A stretch of DNA of 38,330 bases, from the NCBI GenBank assembly GCA_028875055.1, contig JAPPGG010000018.1:1-38330 (forward strand), in the 5' to 3' direction. Shown one piece after another: positions 12,804 through 21,796 of the stretch. The notes under the pieces are model-generated. The model was not told the DNA's origin. It worked only from the letters and a program-made list of their open reading frames with translations, and did no database searches. Each line of letters opens with the position of its first letter. Position 1 is the stretch's first letter. This DNA is from Chloroflexota bacterium. Lineage in GTDB: Bacteria; Chloroflexota; Dehalococcoidia; Lucifugimonadales; UBA3495. The position numbers and the translations under genes were made by a program.

Positions 12804-14150
12804 TCAGGATGCCGGCGGTATCTGCCCCCACAGGGGATGGCGGAAGGTGGGCGCCAGGGCGGGGTTCATTTCTTCCCGCCGGCGGGTTGGCTCGGCCGGT
12901 AGTTCCTCTTCCGGAACATCTGCCAGTCGGGACCGGCGGTAGGCGGCGGCGGGCTGTTTCCTCGGCGGCAGGCTGTTCAAATGGCGGGCCAGCGCTTCCA
13001 GGCTGTTCAGGTTGTGCACTGGCAGGAAGTCGTCCACGTAGGGAAGGGCCGCCTTGATCCCCTGGGTCAGGGGCTGATAGCCGGGCGACCCCAGCAAGGG
13101 ATTCAGCCAGATCAGGCGGTGGCAACTGCGCTGCAGCCGGGACATCTCCCGGGACAGGAGCTCCGGCTCGCCCCGGTCCCACCCGTCGGAGATGACCAGC
13201 ACTACCGGTCCGCTGCCCAGCGTGCGCCGGCCCCACGTATAGTTGAAAGCCTTGATGGCGTCGCCGATTCGGGTGCCTCCGGCCCAGTCAGGCACCGCCC
13301 GGGAAACCTCGTTTACGGCCTGGTCAACGCCGCGGTAGTTCAGGTACCGGGTTATTCGCGTCAGCCGCGTGGCAAAGAGAAAGGCCTCAACCTTTCCCAG
13401 ATCGCCGGCAATGGTGTGAATGAAGTGCAGCAGCAGGCGGGTGTAGCGCTCCATCGAACCGCTGACATCGCAAATCAGAACCAGGGGGCGGGTCTTTTCC
13501 CGTGGCTCCCGGTGGGAAAGCTCCAGGAGTTCTCCGCCGTGCTTGAGGTTCTGGCGGAAAGTCCGTCGCCAGTCCAGGGCCGTCCCTTCACCCACCTGGG
13601 TGCGGCGGGTCTTTCGCTGTCCGATGGCCCAGGAAAGTTCCGACATCATGGTGCGGGCCTGGGCAATTTCCGCCGGAGTGTAGTCAGCGAAGTCCTTCTG
13701 GCGCAACACCTCCCGTGCGCTGTAAGTCTGGCTCATATCGATGGCGGGCATGCCCTCGGGAGCCTCCCCCGCCAGTTCCGAGTTCTCCTCGTCGCCGGAC
13801 ACGGGAGGACCCACCCGGGGATTGCGGTACCTGCGCTCCTCCCCCATGCTGTGCAGGTCCCGGGTGCTGATTCCGTGGGCGGGACGCCGCCAGAAAATCT
13901 GGAATGCATCGTCAAACAGCGGAAAATCCTGCTTGCGGTGCACCAGCAGGCAACGGGCGGCATGGCGGAAGTCCTGCCGCCGGCCAATGGGTATGGTCTC
14001 GGTGGCCTTGACCAGGTCCAGCATATTGCCTGAACCAAAGTCCAGCCCCAGCCGCCGCAATGTCTCCCCGAAAAGCATCAGGTTGTGGAGGATATGGCCG
14101 TCCGACTCGGGGAGGCTGGAAGTAGCGCTTTCGAAATGTTCAGTGCACAT
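12804..14150 (-). CDS. VWA-domain protein, CoxE-like
   Basis: This 448-residue protein has a helical N-terminal half (about 20-200) and a von Willebrand factor A domain (about 220-390). Its MIDAS motif DVSGSM starts at D228, with further metal-site residues in GGTRIGDA and VISDGWDRG. The layout is that of CoxE and related partners of MoxR ATPases, which remodel or insert metal centres into target enzymes. The MoxR gene lies 78 bp upstream and a small coupled ORF follows. No CO-dehydrogenase genes are nearby; the closest metalloenzyme in the window is the sulfite-oxidase-type protein at 17851, so the client is unknown. There is no signal peptide. Confidence 0.87.
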   Translation of the reverse strand: MCTEHFESATSSLPESDGHILHNLMLFGETLRRLGLDFGSGNMLDLVKATETIPIGRRQDFRHAARCLLVHRKQDFPLFDDAFQIFWRRPAHGISTRDLHSMGEERRYRNPRVGPPVSGDEENSELAGEAPEGMPAIDMSQTYSAREVLRQKDFADYTPAEIAQARTMMSELSWAIGQRKTRRTQVGEGTALDWRRTFRQNLKHGGELLELSHREPREKTRPLVLICDVSGSMERYTRLLLHFIHTIAGDLGKVEAFLFATRLTRITRYLNYRGVDQAVNEVSRAVPDWAGGTRIGDAIKAFNYTWGRRTLGSGPVVLVISDGWDRGEPELLSREMSRLQRSCHRLIWLNPLLGSPGYQPLTQGIKAALPYVDDFLPVHNLNSLEALARHLNSLPPRKQPAAAYRRSRLADVPEEELPAEPTRRREEMNPALAPTFRHPLWGQIPPAS

Positions 14151-16203: not shown

Positions 16204-16917
16204 CTAGAGGATGCGGGCCACGGCCCGGGCGGCGGCTCCATCTCCGTCCTTCAGCTTGATGGGAAGCGCCCACAGTTCAAACTCACGCCCCACCAGCTGG
16301 TCCAGGTTTATCAGATTCTCGATCAGGGGTATCCCCTGCCCCAGCAGCAGGCGGTGAACGGGAAAGTCGTCGATGGTGGATTGGGGGCTGGGAGGGTGCT
16401 TGTCTATGGGGAAATCTACGGAAACGGCATTCACACCGTTGTCCGCCAGGTATGCCGCGCCCTCGTTGCTCAGGTATGGGCCCTGGGAATAGAAGCGAAC
16501 GCCCCCCGACTCCGCGGCAGCCCAGCCGGTGAACAGCACAACTATCTTGTCCCTCACCGCTTCGGGAGTTCCCCCGGCCTGCTGGATGTCGGCAACGGAC
16601 AGGGGAGTCAGGCTCTTGGCTATCTCGCGAAAGTCCAGCAACAGCGCCGGCCCCATGTATCGGTTCAGCGGCATGTTTTCTACGGTAGTGCCGTCGGCAT
16701 GGAAATGGTAAGGCGCGTCCACGTGGGTCCCGATGTGGGTCGCCAGCGTAAGCTTGGTGTTAGAACGGGCATGGGACTCATGGGTGTGGAGCGGTTCGGT
16801 GCAAACGCCAATCAAGCCGGGCACGGGAACCACCCGGTCGCTGCCCAGGGTCAGGGTCAAATCAATCAGTTCGGTCAATCTCGCTCTCCCCAGGGTTGTC
16901 TCCCGGTCCGGGTTCAC
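16204..16917 (-). CDS. Cyclase / kynurenine-formamidase-like hydrolase
   Basis: This 237-residue metal-dependent hydrolase of the cyclase family (PF04199 type) carries the signature HIGTHVDAPYHF (H61, T64, H65, D67, H71). The C-terminal metal residues lie around SVDFPIDKHP. Members hydrolyse N-formylkynurenine, isatin or other cyclic amides; the substrate here is not clear. The start is uncertain: the GTG at 16917 is in frame, but an internal TTG giving LTELIDLTL fits the usual N-terminus better. The pyrophosphatase start lies 18 nt downstream, so the two are probably co-transcribed. Confidence 0.85.
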   Translation of the reverse strand: MNPDRETTLGRARLTELIDLTLTLGSDRVVPVPGLIGVCTEPLHTHESHARSNTKLTLATHIGTHVDAPYHFHADGTTVENMPLNRYMGPALLLDFREIAKSLTPLSVADIQQAGGTPEAVRDKIVVLFTGWAAAESGGVRFYSQGPYLSNEGAAYLADNGVNAVSVDFPIDKHPPSPQSTIDDFPVHRLLLGQGIPLIENLINLDQLVGREFELWALPIKLKDGDGAAARAVARIL

Positions 16918-17037: not shown

Positions 17038-17781
17038 CTATTCCCCCACGCAATCTGCTATGGCGGATTCCCATTCGTCCAGGTCAAAGAAATGAGGGCC
17101 CGCCCCGCCGTGATACGCCACCCTTCCGTCGGCGCCTATCAGGTACAGTCGTTCCGGAGCTGCGCCATAGGCTTCATCAATGGCGTTGTCCATTTCCTCA
17201 ATCAGGACGGGCAGCCCGATATTCAGGTCAATGCTGCATGCGTGGGCAACTTCCTCCCGCTCTTCGTAGCTCTGGTGCTGCCGAAACAGCACGCCCTGCC
17301 GGACGTTGCTCTCGGTTTGCCAGCCATCAGTGGGATGGGCTTCCTGGACGTAAACGACAAAGAACTCCACCTGGCCCCGGTATTGTTCGTAAATCCTGGT
17401 CATGCGCTCAGCCTGGGCGCGGAAGGGAGGTCAAGTATAGCTCCCAAAGGCCAGGGCCACCGGCCGCTTGTCCCGAAACTCCGACAGCCGTACCCGCTCC
17501 TCGGAACCCAGCCGCTTCAGGTGAAAATCCTCAGGAAATTCGCCAGCCCTGGGTCCGCTCTCGTCCCTGGCAAGGATGGCCTCCAATGCGCTCATCGCTT
17601 CTAGAGTCAACACATCCTGCCAATCTTGCAGCAACTCCCTGGCGGAAGTACCGCCGTCACTCCTGGCCAGGTCCGGGCTGTTGCCACGGGTGTCCTTGAT
17701 TGCGGCAATCACCCGCTGGACACTCTCGCGGTCTTCCCCTTTCAGGCTGCTAATCTTGCTGTCACGCTGTGACTTCAGCAT
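17038..17781 (-). CDS. Iodothyronine-deiodinase-like selenoprotein (in-frame UGA)
   Basis: Read straight through a TGA at 17431-17433 (codon 117), this is one 247-residue thioredoxin-fold protein. The join reads FGSYT-U-PPFRAQ, which lines up with the catalytic GSCT-U-PxF site of iodothyronine deiodinases and with the Cys form GSYTCPPFR that I recall from bacterial relatives. Downstream come FFVVYVQEAHPTDGW, equivalent to the conserved EEAHxSDGW segment, and a normal thioredoxin C-terminus (LYLIGADGRVAYHG). Upstream is a helical region (1-90) and the strand RLSEFRDKRPVALAF. TGA is an ordinary stop elsewhere in the window, so local recoding to selenocysteine is the best reading. A TGC/TGT-to-TGA error is the alternative. 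The likely role is a selenol-based redox or reductive dehalogenation reaction. Confidence 0.82.
17404..17420 (-). promoter_or_regulatory. Candidate bacterial SECIS stem-loop
   Basis: In the mRNA, 11-27 nt after the UGA, GCGC pairs with GCGC and a further C-G pair closes above a bulged A, leaving loop CAGGCU. Bacterial SECIS elements lie just 3' of the UGA within the coding region and carry loop guanines, as here. The stem is short and closer to the UGA than average, so this is tentative. Confidence 0.35.
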
Positions 17782-17850: not shown

Positions 17851-18957
17851 CTAGCTTACCTGCACTTCTACCGGGAAGACCATATTGTTGCCGTATCCCC
17901 GGCCGTCCCACTTGTTGGGGAATTCCATTGGCTGGGTCTCGCCGAGGCTGTTGGTGGCCCGCGACATCAGCGTGTAGCGGCCGGGACCCGGGGGCTGCCA
18001 CCGGTACTGCCAGCGGAACCAGGCATAGGAGCTGGCTCTCGGCGCCAGGTCTGCCAGGTCCCACGTCTCGCCTCCGTCGGCGCTTATCTCCACTTTAGTC
18101 ACCTCTTCCTCGCCCGACCAGGCGGCGCCGGCCAGCGTATAACCGGCGGCGGGAAGGACCTCCCCGGGAGAGGGATTGGTGATAATGGACTTGACCTTCA
18201 TCTTGGTGTGGTAGGTGTAGTATTCCGGGCTGTCCGGACCGTTCTGGGTCATGTACCGCTCGGTCTGGTAGAAGCCCTTGAACTCGTGGTCCAGGACGTG
18301 GATGCCAACCAGCCACTTCACCGAATTCATGCCGTACCAGCCCGGCACCAGCAGGCGCAGGGGGTAGCCGTGATTCAGTGGCAGCGGCTCGCCGTTCATC
18401 TCGTAGGCCAGCATGGTGTCCTGGTGCTGGGCCTTGGCGATGGGCAGACTGCGTTCATAGGTAACGTCCGGCGGGTCGCCCACGGTTTCATCCGGGCCAT
18501 GGTCCGCTCCCTCGAACATCACCTCAACCGCCGACGCCTTGACGCCCGCCCTCGCCAGGATGTCGGCCAGGGAGACTCCGGCCCACTCGGCGTTGCCCAT
18601 TATGCCGTGGCCCTTGATCATTTCCATCACGGAGCCGGTCCGGGTGGACCTGGCCCAATAATCGGGCACCGGGCTGTTCCCGCAGCATTCAAACGTTACC
18701 TGGAACCGCTGCTGCGCCATGCTCAGAATTTCGTCGAACGAGAGGCTCAGCGGCGTCTCAACTTCTCCGTCAACTGTCAGCCGGTAGGTGTTGATGTCTA
18801 TCTCCGGACAGTCAGTCCAGTGGTTGCGTATATAGAAGAGGTCGTTGGGGACTACCTCCTGCTGCAACGCCTCCGGGGGCGCCGCCCACGTGCGCAGACC
18901 GGCGTTGGTCGGGATTAGCTGGGGTTGTACCGCGGTTCGCAGACTCCGGGTTGCCAT
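17851..18957 (-). CDS. Sulfite-oxidase-type molybdopterin enzyme
   Basis: This 368-residue protein has the sulfite oxidase molybdopterin domain (about 35-230) followed by the Mo-co dimerisation domain (about 250-365, with KVEISADGGETWDLADL). The molybdenum ligand is Cys91 in FECCGN, equivalent to the family's CAGN. The stretch HGYPLRLLVPGWYGMNSVKWL is the classic cofactor-binding segment. No Tat or Sec signal and no heme domain are present, so it should be cytoplasmic and use an external electron acceptor. Oxidation of sulfite to sulfate is likely, given the thiol dioxygenase and rhodanese genes upstream on the same strand. AGGAGG lies 6 nt before the ATG. Confidence 0.92.
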   Translation of the reverse strand: MATRSLRTAVQPQLIPTNAGLRTWAAPPEALQQEVVPNDLFYIRNHWTDCPEIDINTYRLTVDGEVETPLSLSFDEILSMAQQRFQVTFECCGNSPVPDYWARSTRTGSVMEMIKGHGIMGNAEWAGVSLADILARAGVKASAVEVMFEGADHGPDETVGDPPDVTYERSLPIAKAQHQDTMLAYEMNGEPLPLNHGYPLRLLVPGWYGMNSVKWLVGIHVLDHEFKGFYQTERYMTQNGPDSPEYYTYHTKMKVKSIITNPSPGEVLPAAGYTLAGAAWSGEEEVTKVEISADGGETWDLADLAPRASSYAWFRWQYRWQPPGPGRYTLMSRATNSLGETQPMEFPNKWDGRGYGNNMVFPVEVQVS

Positions 18958-19064
18958 GATTGGCCTCCTGTCCAGTTATTTCGTTTGCCACCGGCCTCGG
19001 TGGACCGTTGTATTCAAGCCGTTTAGAGGCTGCCGGACCTTTCAGACGATTTCGTGGCCGGATT

Positions 19065-19415
19065 TCACTCCAGGTATTCGGTTTCCAGTTCCGTTGTGGG
19101 ATACGTCACCAGCAGCCTGACGGGAATCCACAGCTTGTTGACCAGCTTGTGGGGCGTGCCGGGCGGCGCGAACAGGGTGCATCCTGCCCGCACGGTTCGG
19201 AGTTCATCGTCGATGATCAACTGTACCGCGCCGGCCATCACCATTATGGCCGTGTCGGTGGGATGCCTGTGCAGCCGGCCCTCCCACCCCGGGTGCAGCT
19301 CAACCTCCTTGATGGTTAGAGACGCCGCGCCCTGCTCCGCCGATACAAAGGTGCGCTCGGCCCAGTAGTCCGTCGGCGCCGACATCCTGATGCTGCTGTG
19401 TTCAATTATGGGCAT
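19065..19415 (-). CDS. Small single-domain cupin protein
   Basis: This 116-residue beta-barrel protein has cupin motif 1 around HPGWEGRLHRHPTDTAIMVMAG (His residues in GRLHRH) and motif 2 around GCTLFAPPGTPHKLVN. It could bind a metal and act as a dioxygenase, isomerase or binding protein; the sequence does not say which. GAGGT lies about 5 nt before the ATG. It sits between the rhodanese and the sulfite-oxidase genes, all on the minus strand with gaps of about 85-110 bp, so a link to sulfur metabolism is plausible but inferred from position. Confidence 0.8.
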   Translation of the reverse strand: MPIIEHSSIRMSAPTDYWAERTFVSAEQGAASLTIKEVELHPGWEGRLHRHPTDTAIMVMAGAVQLIIDDELRTVRAGCTLFAPPGTPHKLVNKLWIPVRLLVTYPTTELETEYLE

Positions 19416-19500
19416 GCATTACCTCAAAGTGAGACCAATTACCCTGTACGGCAAAGACTTCCAACGCCGTGTATGGCCTGCATTTAACTCCAGGCGGTCA

Positions 19501-21093
19501 TCAGGCCCCGGCGTACTTCTCCCCCAGGGCCGTCTCCCAGCGCAAGTAGTTCATCATGTCGGCGTAGTTCCGGTCGGGTCCACTGGCCACCAGGTCGGTT
19601 GGGGGACTCATTACCCCCGACAGGCCCGTCTCCAATGGCAGGCCGGCGGCGCGCCAGGCATTCATTCCGCCCGACAGAATTGCCACGCTGCTGTAGCCCA
19701 TATCTCGCAGGGTAGCTGCGGCAAAGAGGGAATTCTGGCCGTCCCGGCAAGAAACCGTTATTGACGTGTCCTTGTCCGGTACCAGGCCTTCTATTTGCAG
19801 CTCCAGCCAGCCGCGCGGCGCCCAACGGGCTCCCGGAACGTGGCCCTGGGCAAAGTCGCCGCTGGTGTCCACGAAAATTACCGCCGAGCCGGAATCGGAG
19901 GCTCTCGCCCGTTCCAGTTCCTGCGGAGAAATCTCCCTGCTTCCGGCCTTGGCGGCGTCCAGCCCCATGACCGGTTCCGACGGTCCGCCGGTTTCCACGT
20001 CGAGACCGGCCGCGGCCCAGGCGGCGACGCCTCCGGCAACGGCGTAAACCTCTTCGTGCCCCAGCTGCCGGTACCAGGATGCGGTAATGGTGGACCGGAC
20101 CTTATCGTCGCAAGCGAAGATGATGGGAGTGTTCCTGACCACCGCTACTTCATCCGACCGTTGCACGGCCTGTCCCCCGGGGAACCAGCGGAAACCCGGG
20201 ATGTGGCCTTCCCGGTACTCTTCAGTGGTGCGCACGTCCACGAAATAGACGGTCTCTGACGTGGCGCGTTCCATCATCTGCTTGAGGGAAGGGATGTCCA
20301 GGTAGCGAACGCCGTCCTCCGCCGCCAGTTGGTCGGCATATGCCTCCGCGGCGGCCAGTCCCTCGGCGGACGGCTGCGGCAGGCCCACCCGGTCGGCGCC
20401 CGATTCCAGTTCGAAGCCGGCCAGCACCCAGCCGGAAGTGCCATTCTTGAGGCCAAGCACGTTCTGGCGGCCCATGCGCTGCAGCACTCGGGTGCCGATT
20501 ATGCTGCGTGTCCGCCCCGCGCAATTGACAATCACCGTGGTGTCCGGGTCCAAATCGGCGGTAATATCCGTGATGCGCAGCGCCAGTTCTCCTCCCGGCA
20601 CGCTCCGTCCGCCGGGGATGCAGAACCTCCGATATTCCTCCGGCGTGCGCGTATCGAGTATTACAAGCTTGTCGCCCCGTTCAATACGCTCGTGGAGTTC
20701 TGTGGCGTCAATTTCGGGGACGTGGTGGACCACCTCCATTTTCTCCCCGAAGTCCTTGCTGGGAACGTTTACCCCCCATTCGGTGGGATAGTCCAGGCTG
20801 GCCCACCCGTTAATGCCGCGGTCCAGCACGGCAACGTCGGTGTACCCCAGCCTTTCCAGGGTGGCCGCCGCCAGGCTTGCCCTGCGGCCATCGTCATCGC
20901 AAATGACCACCTGGGCCCCCCTTTGGGGAACGGATGCGGCTATGCGAAACTCCAGCTCCCGGCGGGGAATGAGGCTTGCCTCAGGGATATGTGTGCTGTT
21001 GTATTCACCCGCCTCCCGCACGTCAATGAGGGCGAAGGAGTCCTTGCTTTCCAGGAGTTTTGCCAGGGCTTCTGGGGATATTTCCCGGGCCAT
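19501..21093 (-). CDS. Four-domain rhodanese (sulfurtransferase)
   Basis: This 530-residue protein consists of four tandem rhodanese domains (about 5-110, 120-230, 255-370, 385-495). Each keeps a cysteine at the active-site loop position: VVICDDDGRRAS, VIVNCAGRTRS, IIFACDDKVRS and ITVSCRDGQNS. Only the second (CAGRTRS) looks like a standard catalytic loop; the others are more diverged. Rhodaneses carry persulfide sulfur between donors and acceptors such as thiosulfate, cyanide or proteins. The quadruple arrangement resembles YnjE-like and other multi-domain sulfurtransferases. Its place between a thiol dioxygenase gene and a sulfite-oxidase-type gene supports a role in moving sulfur from organic thiols. 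An AGAGGTGA site precedes the ATG. Confidence 0.92.
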   Translation of the reverse strand: MAREISPEALAKLLESKDSFALIDVREAGEYNSTHIPEASLIPRRELEFRIAASVPQRGAQVVICDDDGRRASLAAATLERLGYTDVAVLDRGINGWASLDYPTEWGVNVPSKDFGEKMEVVHHVPEIDATELHERIERGDKLVILDTRTPEEYRRFCIPGGRSVPGGELALRITDITADLDPDTTVIVNCAGRTRSIIGTRVLQRMGRQNVLGLKNGTSGWVLAGFELESGADRVGLPQPSAEGLAAAEAYADQLAAEDGVRYLDIPSLKQMMERATSETVYFVDVRTTEEYREGHIPGFRWFPGGQAVQRSDEVAVVRNTPIIFACDDKVRSTITASWYRQLGHEEVYAVAGGVAAWAAAGLDVETGGPSEPVMGLDAAKAGSREISPQELERARASDSGSAVIFVDTSGDFAQGHVPGARWAPRGWLELQIEGLVPDKDTSITVSCRDGQNSLFAAATLRDMGYSSVAILSGGMNAWRAAGLPLETGLSGVMSPPTDLVASGPDRNYADMMNYLRWETALGEKYAGA

Positions 21094-21211
21094 TTTAAGT
21101 TCACCTCTTGTCTGTTGGCTTGTTCAGGCCCCGCCTGGGGCGCCTTGCGGTATAAAGCAGTTTGATAGATGTAAATGGCTGGCCAGCGGCGGTCAATATC
21201 TGGCCCCGACT

Positions 21212-21796
21212 CTAGCAGTTGTCGTATCTCTCGGTTACGAAGGGAATAATCTTGCCGGACTCCAGGTCGTAGCGGCTCCGGTGCAGGCCCCGCAAGTCGT
21301 TCCCGTAAACGTGGATTTCCACGGTGGGCCGGTCGGTGAAGTTGTCCATCTGGTGGATCTCGTCCACCTCGGGAATCAGCAGGGTTATTTCACCCGATGT
21401 GAACTCCACGCTCCGGTCCTTTTCCAGCCTGGCGTAGCCTTCCGTCTCACGGTCGTCCACGCGCCGGAAGCGGGTTTCGGTCAGGTTGTTGCCCATCACC
21501 CCAATCATTCCCCAGGTGCAGTGGTCGTGCGGAGACGCGTGGTCCCCTGGCCCCCATACCACCGAGGTGACCAGCAAGCCGCTGTCTCCCTGGTACAGGG
21601 CGTAGGAACCGTGGTTGCTGCGGGCGCCATTCCCCACCGGAACGAGGTATTCCTCGGGAATGGCAGCCGGATTGGCAATCAGCTTTTCCAGGTAGGACGA
21701 ACCCTGATCGAAAATCCTGTGCTGGTCGGGCTGGTCCCGGAGCAGGGCTTCCATATCATGTATGAACTCATCCAGCGAATATTTGACGGTGGTCAT
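21212..21796 (-). CDS. Cysteine-dioxygenase-type thiol dioxygenase
   Basis: This 194-residue cupin matches the cysteine dioxygenase type I family. It has the iron-binding three-histidine set: H90 and H92 in PHDHCTWGMIGV and H148 in DEIHQMDN. HVYGNDLRG follows as in the family. It should convert a small thiol, such as cysteine or 3-mercaptopropionate, to the sulfinate with O2. Cys93 directly follows H92 rather than lying five residues on as in mammalian enzymes, so the Cys-Tyr cofactor cannot be assumed. GGGAGG lies 6 nt before the ATG. It is the first gene of the minus-strand sulfur run. Confidence 0.87.
   Translation of the reverse strand: MTTVKYSLDEFIHDMEALLRDQPDQHRIFDQGSSYLEKLIANPAAIPEEYLVPVGNGARSNHGSYALYQGDSGLLVTSVVWGPGDHASPHDHCTWGMIGVMGNNLTETRFRRVDDRETEGYARLEKDRSVEFTSGEITLLIPEVDEIHQMDNFTDRPTVEIHVYGNDLRGLHRSRYDLESGKIIPFVTERYDNC

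Follow-up and report, generated by a model that had tools for sequence, protein, structure and literature searches.

A conserved in-frame UGA in a deiodinase-like gene of SAR202 bacteria marks a probable selenoprotein

A 38,330-nucleotide stretch of DNA from a Chloroflexota bacterium (contig JAPPGG010000018.1 of assembly GCA_028875055.1), hereafter the window, harbors a gene that very probably encodes a real selenoprotein of a known kind, a deiodinase-like protein in which an in-frame UGA would be read as selenocysteine (Sec). We place the probability of Sec insertion at codon 117, together with a deiodinase-type fold and active centre, at about 0.93, a figure that leaves the chemistry of the product outside. 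A sequence-only reading of the window had proposed such a selenoprotein, and the proposal is supported by four lines of evidence computed here: the conserved UGA, the machinery genes in the genome, a covarying hairpin and the alignment of the active site. The product is most likely a thiol-dependent redox selenoenzyme. The features discussed are listed in Table 1.

Table 1. Features of the window around the deiodinase-like gene
Feature	Position	Strand	Remarks
Probable deiodinase-like selenoprotein gene	17038..17781	-	247 residues, ATG start, TAG stop; in-frame TGA is codon 117
Codon 117 (UGA), catalytic residue, probably read as Sec	17431..17433	-	TGA in 28/28 relatives and 34/34 close matches in the order; aligns with Dio3 Sec170
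SECIS-like hairpin	17404..17420	-	spans +11 to +27 counted from the UGA; stem of 7 positions, one of them a C-A mismatch in the window's own copy; loop GGC of 3 nt
Cys182 codon	17236..17238	-	does not vary among relatives; possible resolving thiol
Upstream neighbour, molybdopterin sulfite dehydrogenase-like (SorA/SoxC type)	17851..18957	-	PF00174, 3.5e-54; NF052245, 2.4e-75, below its cut-off
Downstream neighbour, cyclase/arylformamidase-like	16204..16917	-	PF04199, 2.5e-27
Further upstream: cupin, four-rhodanese protein, cysteine-dioxygenase-like	19065..21796	-	PF07883, PF00581, PF05995

The two adjacent open reading frames recognized earlier, 17431-17781 and 17038-17403, were both recovered in the same minus-strand frame, split by the TGA at 17433-17431. 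Translating this TGA as a residue confirmed the proposed join, FGSYT-U117-PPFRAQ, and yielded a protein that also carries the motif QEAHPTDGW. Nine sense codons (17430-17404) separate the TGA from the downstream ATG, and not ten as had been counted before. The start Met of the 247-residue frame is conserved among relatives. In all genomes of this lineage, ordinary annotation would probably divide the gene in two or miss it.

The conservation of the TGA was assessed in two collections, which overlap in part because some assemblies are present in both. A scan of genome contigs with peptide patterns that left out the TGA site recovered 29 relatives, whose record titles all name Chloroflexi, Dehalococcoidia or SAR202; 28 of them span the site, and every one of these has TGA there as the sole in-frame stop over the matched stretch. 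When 250 genomes of the order (the source genome included) were searched with a profile, all 34 matches at E < 1e-50 that cover the site contain exactly one internal TGA. The earlier argument that a TGA would hardly fall on exactly this codon by chance is thus borne out by the TGA and the open frame after it in both sets. A TGC or TGT at codon 117, which would have spoken against a selenoprotein and was looked for in the other assemblies, occurs in no close relative, and Cys is accordingly absent at this position from all close relatives compared. The ratio of nonsynonymous to synonymous codon differences, as raw counts uncorrected for opportunity, was 0.88 after the TGA, 1.57 before it and 0.64 in the 31 codons just before it; by this comparison, the codons after the TGA are under protein-level constraint similar to that on the codons before.

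At the level of the phylum, 13 of 400 genomes had a match over the Pfam cut-off, and ten of these matches carry a TGA, in all ten cases at the catalytic codon (FGSxTU) and followed by PPF, TVF or PIT; the other three have Cys, Ser or Gly at the catalytic codon. A scan of viral contigs found no relatives of the gene, and a scan of plasmids gave one distant match, annotated as deiodinase-like. Weaker matches with one TGA, at about 1e-10 to 1e-20, are also numerous in G539, G554, G557, G558 and other genomes of the order, which suggests that the order may hold more related selenoproteins of the same fold.

The search for a SECIS element that the earlier reading had recommended revealed a hairpin just downstream of the UGA, with covariation among relatives. 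The alignment of 29 sequences is gap-free from the TGA onwards, and the seven-pair stem is paired in 90.1% of cells, a value drawn from relatives that are not independent, and for which the counts from shuffling do not amount to probabilities; shifting the stem partner by one to three columns lowers pairing to 16-55%. In three stem pairs both partners have changed; examples are C-G to U-A in L021, L024, L025 and L028 and G-C to U-A in L012. The loop keeps three bases across relatives (GGC, GGT, GTC and similar), and the hairpin lies where synonymous variation is the lowest of the gene, at codons 119-127 (0.22, whereas the mean is 0.47). The hairpin stands as far from the UGA as known bacterial SECIS elements do, and its small apical loop carries a G, as in bacterial SECIS. 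The folding energy of the single sequence was no better than that of shuffled sequence, RNAalifold gave a weak structure that kept only four of the pairs, and Rfam at its gathering threshold detected neither a SECIS nor any other RNA across the window. Since the single-sequence folding is not significant and the RNAalifold result is weak, the case for the hairpin rests on sequence comparison.

The source genome (98.4% complete) contains all four of the components whose presence had been suggested as a check: selA (E 1.2e-162), selB (4.6e-103), selD (2.1e-115) and a tRNA-Sec (67.5 bits) with the anticodon TCA (UCA in RNA). As selA was found in 321 of the 400 genomes of the phylum, its presence alone is weak support, a necessary condition and not a strong proof, and co-occurrence with selA was for this reason set aside as proof of Sec decoding. 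No selA above the cut-off was found in the genomes of two TGA-bearing family members, G270 (95% complete) and G217 (86% complete), where its absence is likely an assembly gap. The member in G270 (L058) is a distant one with FGSVT-TGA-PPF. In symbiont bins of the sponge Aplysina aerophoba, SelA and SelB were reported from most bins but not from most close reference genomes (PMC5649159). In the SelD of the source genome (L090:315-1238, contig C49), the catalytic position is itself occupied by an in-frame TGA (SHCAG-U-AAKIS), and the genome therefore has a second use for Sec. Another likely selenoprotein of the same genome is a 210-residue ResA-like protein (L089:401-1030; contig C28, 26300-27700) with a hydrophobic N-terminal stretch and an in-frame TGA inside a UPVC motif; one-TGA matches of equal open-frame length occur in G572 and in G569, which belongs to the same genus as the window's genome.

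Three other accounts of the TGA must be weighed against decoding as Sec. If a Cys-type gene had acquired a nonsense mutation or been misread in sequencing, a single copy would look just as it does here, with one TGA splitting an otherwise open frame. However, the same TGA recurs in 28 of 28 relatives from separate assemblies and in all 34 matches of the order, the constraint continues after it and no close relative has Cys; because of this conservation and continued constraint, a pseudogene or read error is effectively excluded. Reassignment of UGA to an ordinary amino acid throughout the genome, or readthrough of another kind, would also keep the frame open, but this is highly improbable: the genome holds the full Sec machinery, the codon is a known Sec site and, as noted in the earlier reading, TGA serves as an ordinary stop in the window, where it ends three other predicted genes (12804-14150, 19065-19415 and 19501-21093). 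It is conceivable, given the downstream in-frame ATG at 17403, that the UGA terminates a first polypeptide and that a second starts there. Such an arrangement would cut a thioredoxin-fold domain at its catalytic residue and lose that residue; moreover, the nine intervening codons match the remainder of the gene in conservation, the frames of all relatives reach the common end without another stop, and the ATG is not conserved, being replaced by Ile in L017, L019, L020, L022 and L027. We consider it very improbable, and Sec insertion remains by far the preferred reading.

The readthrough product belongs to the iodothyronine deiodinase family: residues 51-237 match PF00837 at E 2.9e-33 with 115.6 bits, above the curated cut-off of 27, while the AhpC-TSA Pfam match is weaker (E 1.4e-6). 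The closest solved structures by sequence are the catalytic cores of mouse Dio3 (E 1.9e-25) and Dio2 (7.3e-22), with other chains far behind. As the earlier reading had asked, codon 117 was placed against the family, and it aligns with the catalytic Sec/Cys of PF00837 members and with the catalytic Sec of Dio2 and Dio3, which was mutated to Cys in the crystals. An AlphaFold2 model (mean pLDDT 79, pTM 0.76; omega loop near 148-164 poorly modelled) superimposes best on Dio2, with Z 19.3 (rmsd 2.7 A, 167 residues), and on Dio3, with Z 19.2 (2.8 A, 166 residues). Its match to AhpE, at Z 18.8, is within error of these, and the fold alone is thus undecided between them.

In the active centre, the window protein has every one of Dio3 Ser167, Thr169, Sec170, Tyr197, Glu200, His202, Asp205, Gly206, Trp207, His219 and Arg225, whose roles follow PMC7506546 and PMC11592359, so that the Ser/Thr/Sec/Tyr/Glu/His/His/Arg network of iodothyronine deiodinases is complete; it also retains the first part of the omega loop (EAHPTDGW). 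Only Trp207 varies among the tabulated SAR202 relatives, being Arg in some. In contrast, Dio3 Tyr257, Phe258 and Arg275, which have been proposed to hold or gate thyroid hormone (PMC7506546, PMC11592359), correspond to Ala208, Pro209 and Ala227, none of which varies among relatives. In Dio2 the three positions hold Ala, Phe and Lys, and the window protein has neither the basic residue nor the Phe at the hormone site. Because the protein lacks the residues by which thyroid hormone is gripped, 'deiodinase' is used here as a family label only. Among the Chloroflexota members compared, the combination of His219 with a DGW (or DGR) loop is found only in the SAR202 lineage. In an unrooted FastTree tree of 25 sequences, with only two animal sequences among them, this lineage and four other loop-bearing Chloroflexota members group with Dio2 and Dio3, apart from the loop-less forms, with a support of 0.99.

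In the mechanism that we propose, UGA117 would be decoded by SelB and Sec-tRNA(UCA), guided by the hairpin 11-27 nt downstream. From about residue 75 to residue 247 the product would adopt a peroxiredoxin/thioredoxin fold, and its active centre would be of the deiodinase type, with the Sec117 selenolate predicted to lie in a hydrogen-bond network of Ser114, Thr116, Tyr144, Glu147, His149, His169 and Arg175. The likeliest reaction is an attack of Sec117 on an electrophilic atom in some small substrate, such as a peroxide or a halogen, after which thiols would regenerate the selenolate. Cys182, whose position differs from that of Dio3 Cys239, may act as the resolving thiol and could take part in this regeneration.

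The surroundings of the gene were compared as well. Beyond the downstream cyclase lie Ham1, a MadB-like ATPase and a CoxE-type protein, and much of this arrangement is shared by the nearest relatives (L001, L002, L005, L008 and L009/L029) but not by most others, whose neighbours include a dienelactone hydrolase, a TPP enzyme or other genes. As the neighbours differ beyond close relatives, the gene has no fixed operon, and its neighbours say little about its function. The row from 17851 to 21796, with its cysteine-dioxygenase-like, four-rhodanese, cupin and SorA-like genes, suggests the oxidation of organic sulfur; a role for the selenoprotein in such an operon was considered and rejected, since the order holds only in near relatives. 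Near relatives include SAR202 symbionts of A. aerophoba, bins 22 (L001) and 87 (PMC5649159), and relatives from open-ocean samples, according to their record titles, carry the gene too.

With respect to function, a thiol peroxidase or other antioxidant reductase is an evenly balanced proposition. The modelled peroxiredoxin fold, with AhpE among its top structural matches, and the AhpC-TSA match are consistent with it, as is the redox role suggested for bacterial deiodinase-like proteins in a 2005 paper (PMC1088965); nevertheless, deiodinase-specific residues are strongly conserved, and a plain peroxidase would not need them. Reductive dehalogenation of haloaromatics, in the manner of the animal enzymes, would account for the retained Dio network and omega-loop start, and it would suit the sponge host, as halogenated metabolites are described from the genus Aplysina (PMC6644159). 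However, the hormone-binding and gating residues are replaced, the gene is also carried by open-ocean relatives, and known dehalogenation genes were not seen adjoining it in the window or in the neighbourhoods of relatives, and we regard this function as unlikely. Still more doubtful is the wider idea that SAR202 bacteria, including sponge symbionts, use an animal-deiodinase-type Sec enzyme to dehalogenate marine haloaromatics reductively and that their lineage is close to the source of the animal deiodinases. A thiol-dependent redox selenoenzyme is the description we prefer. The gene adds a conserved selenoprotein to the SAR202 marine bacteria.

Deiodinase-like selenoproteins were reported in bacteria in 2005, from the Sargasso Sea (PMC1088965), and were counted in later ocean surveys (GOS 2008, PMC2398784; PMC9402790); the passages of the 2005 and 2008 surveys drawn on here name no Chloroflexota or SAR202 members, and no paper on SAR202 selenoproteins was found in the open-access literature. 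The window protein resembles these bacterial proteins in its PF00837 domain, the UGA at the catalytic position and a bacterial SECIS-type hairpin. Recent reviews give the motif as UxxC (PMC9312934, PMC13188914), whereas a Cys three residues after Sec is absent here and UPPF is found in 28 of 28 relatives, as in animals. The 2008 survey gives no fixed motif (PMC2398784), so that UxxC may not be a defining trait of the bacterial family. NCBIfam NF038285 (deiodinase family protein, 347 model positions) matches over the catalytic domain at E 6.5e-55, but its 187 bits lie below the cut-off of 250. The 1-Cys peroxiredoxin AhpE and ResA-type thioredoxins share the fold (Z about 18-19), but with only 16-21% identity in structural alignments.

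The likeness to animal Dio1-3 extends to the TUPPF motif, the fold and the equivalents of Dio3 Ser167, Thr169, Tyr197, Glu200, His202, Trp207, His219 and Arg225. The window protein differs from them in lacking equivalents of Phe258, Arg275 (Lys in Dio2) and Tyr257 (Ala in Dio2 too), in having no Cys at Dio3 positions 168 or 239, in about 75 extra N-terminal residues that are predicted to be helical, and in the bacterial type of SECIS placement in its gene. The seemingly new element is a lineage conserved within SAR202, sponge symbionts among its members, that combines the animal-type catalytic network and UPPF with the loss of the hormone-clamp residues; a bacterial protein with the network of the animal deiodinases minus the hormone clamp offers a natural test of this network without thyroid hormone.
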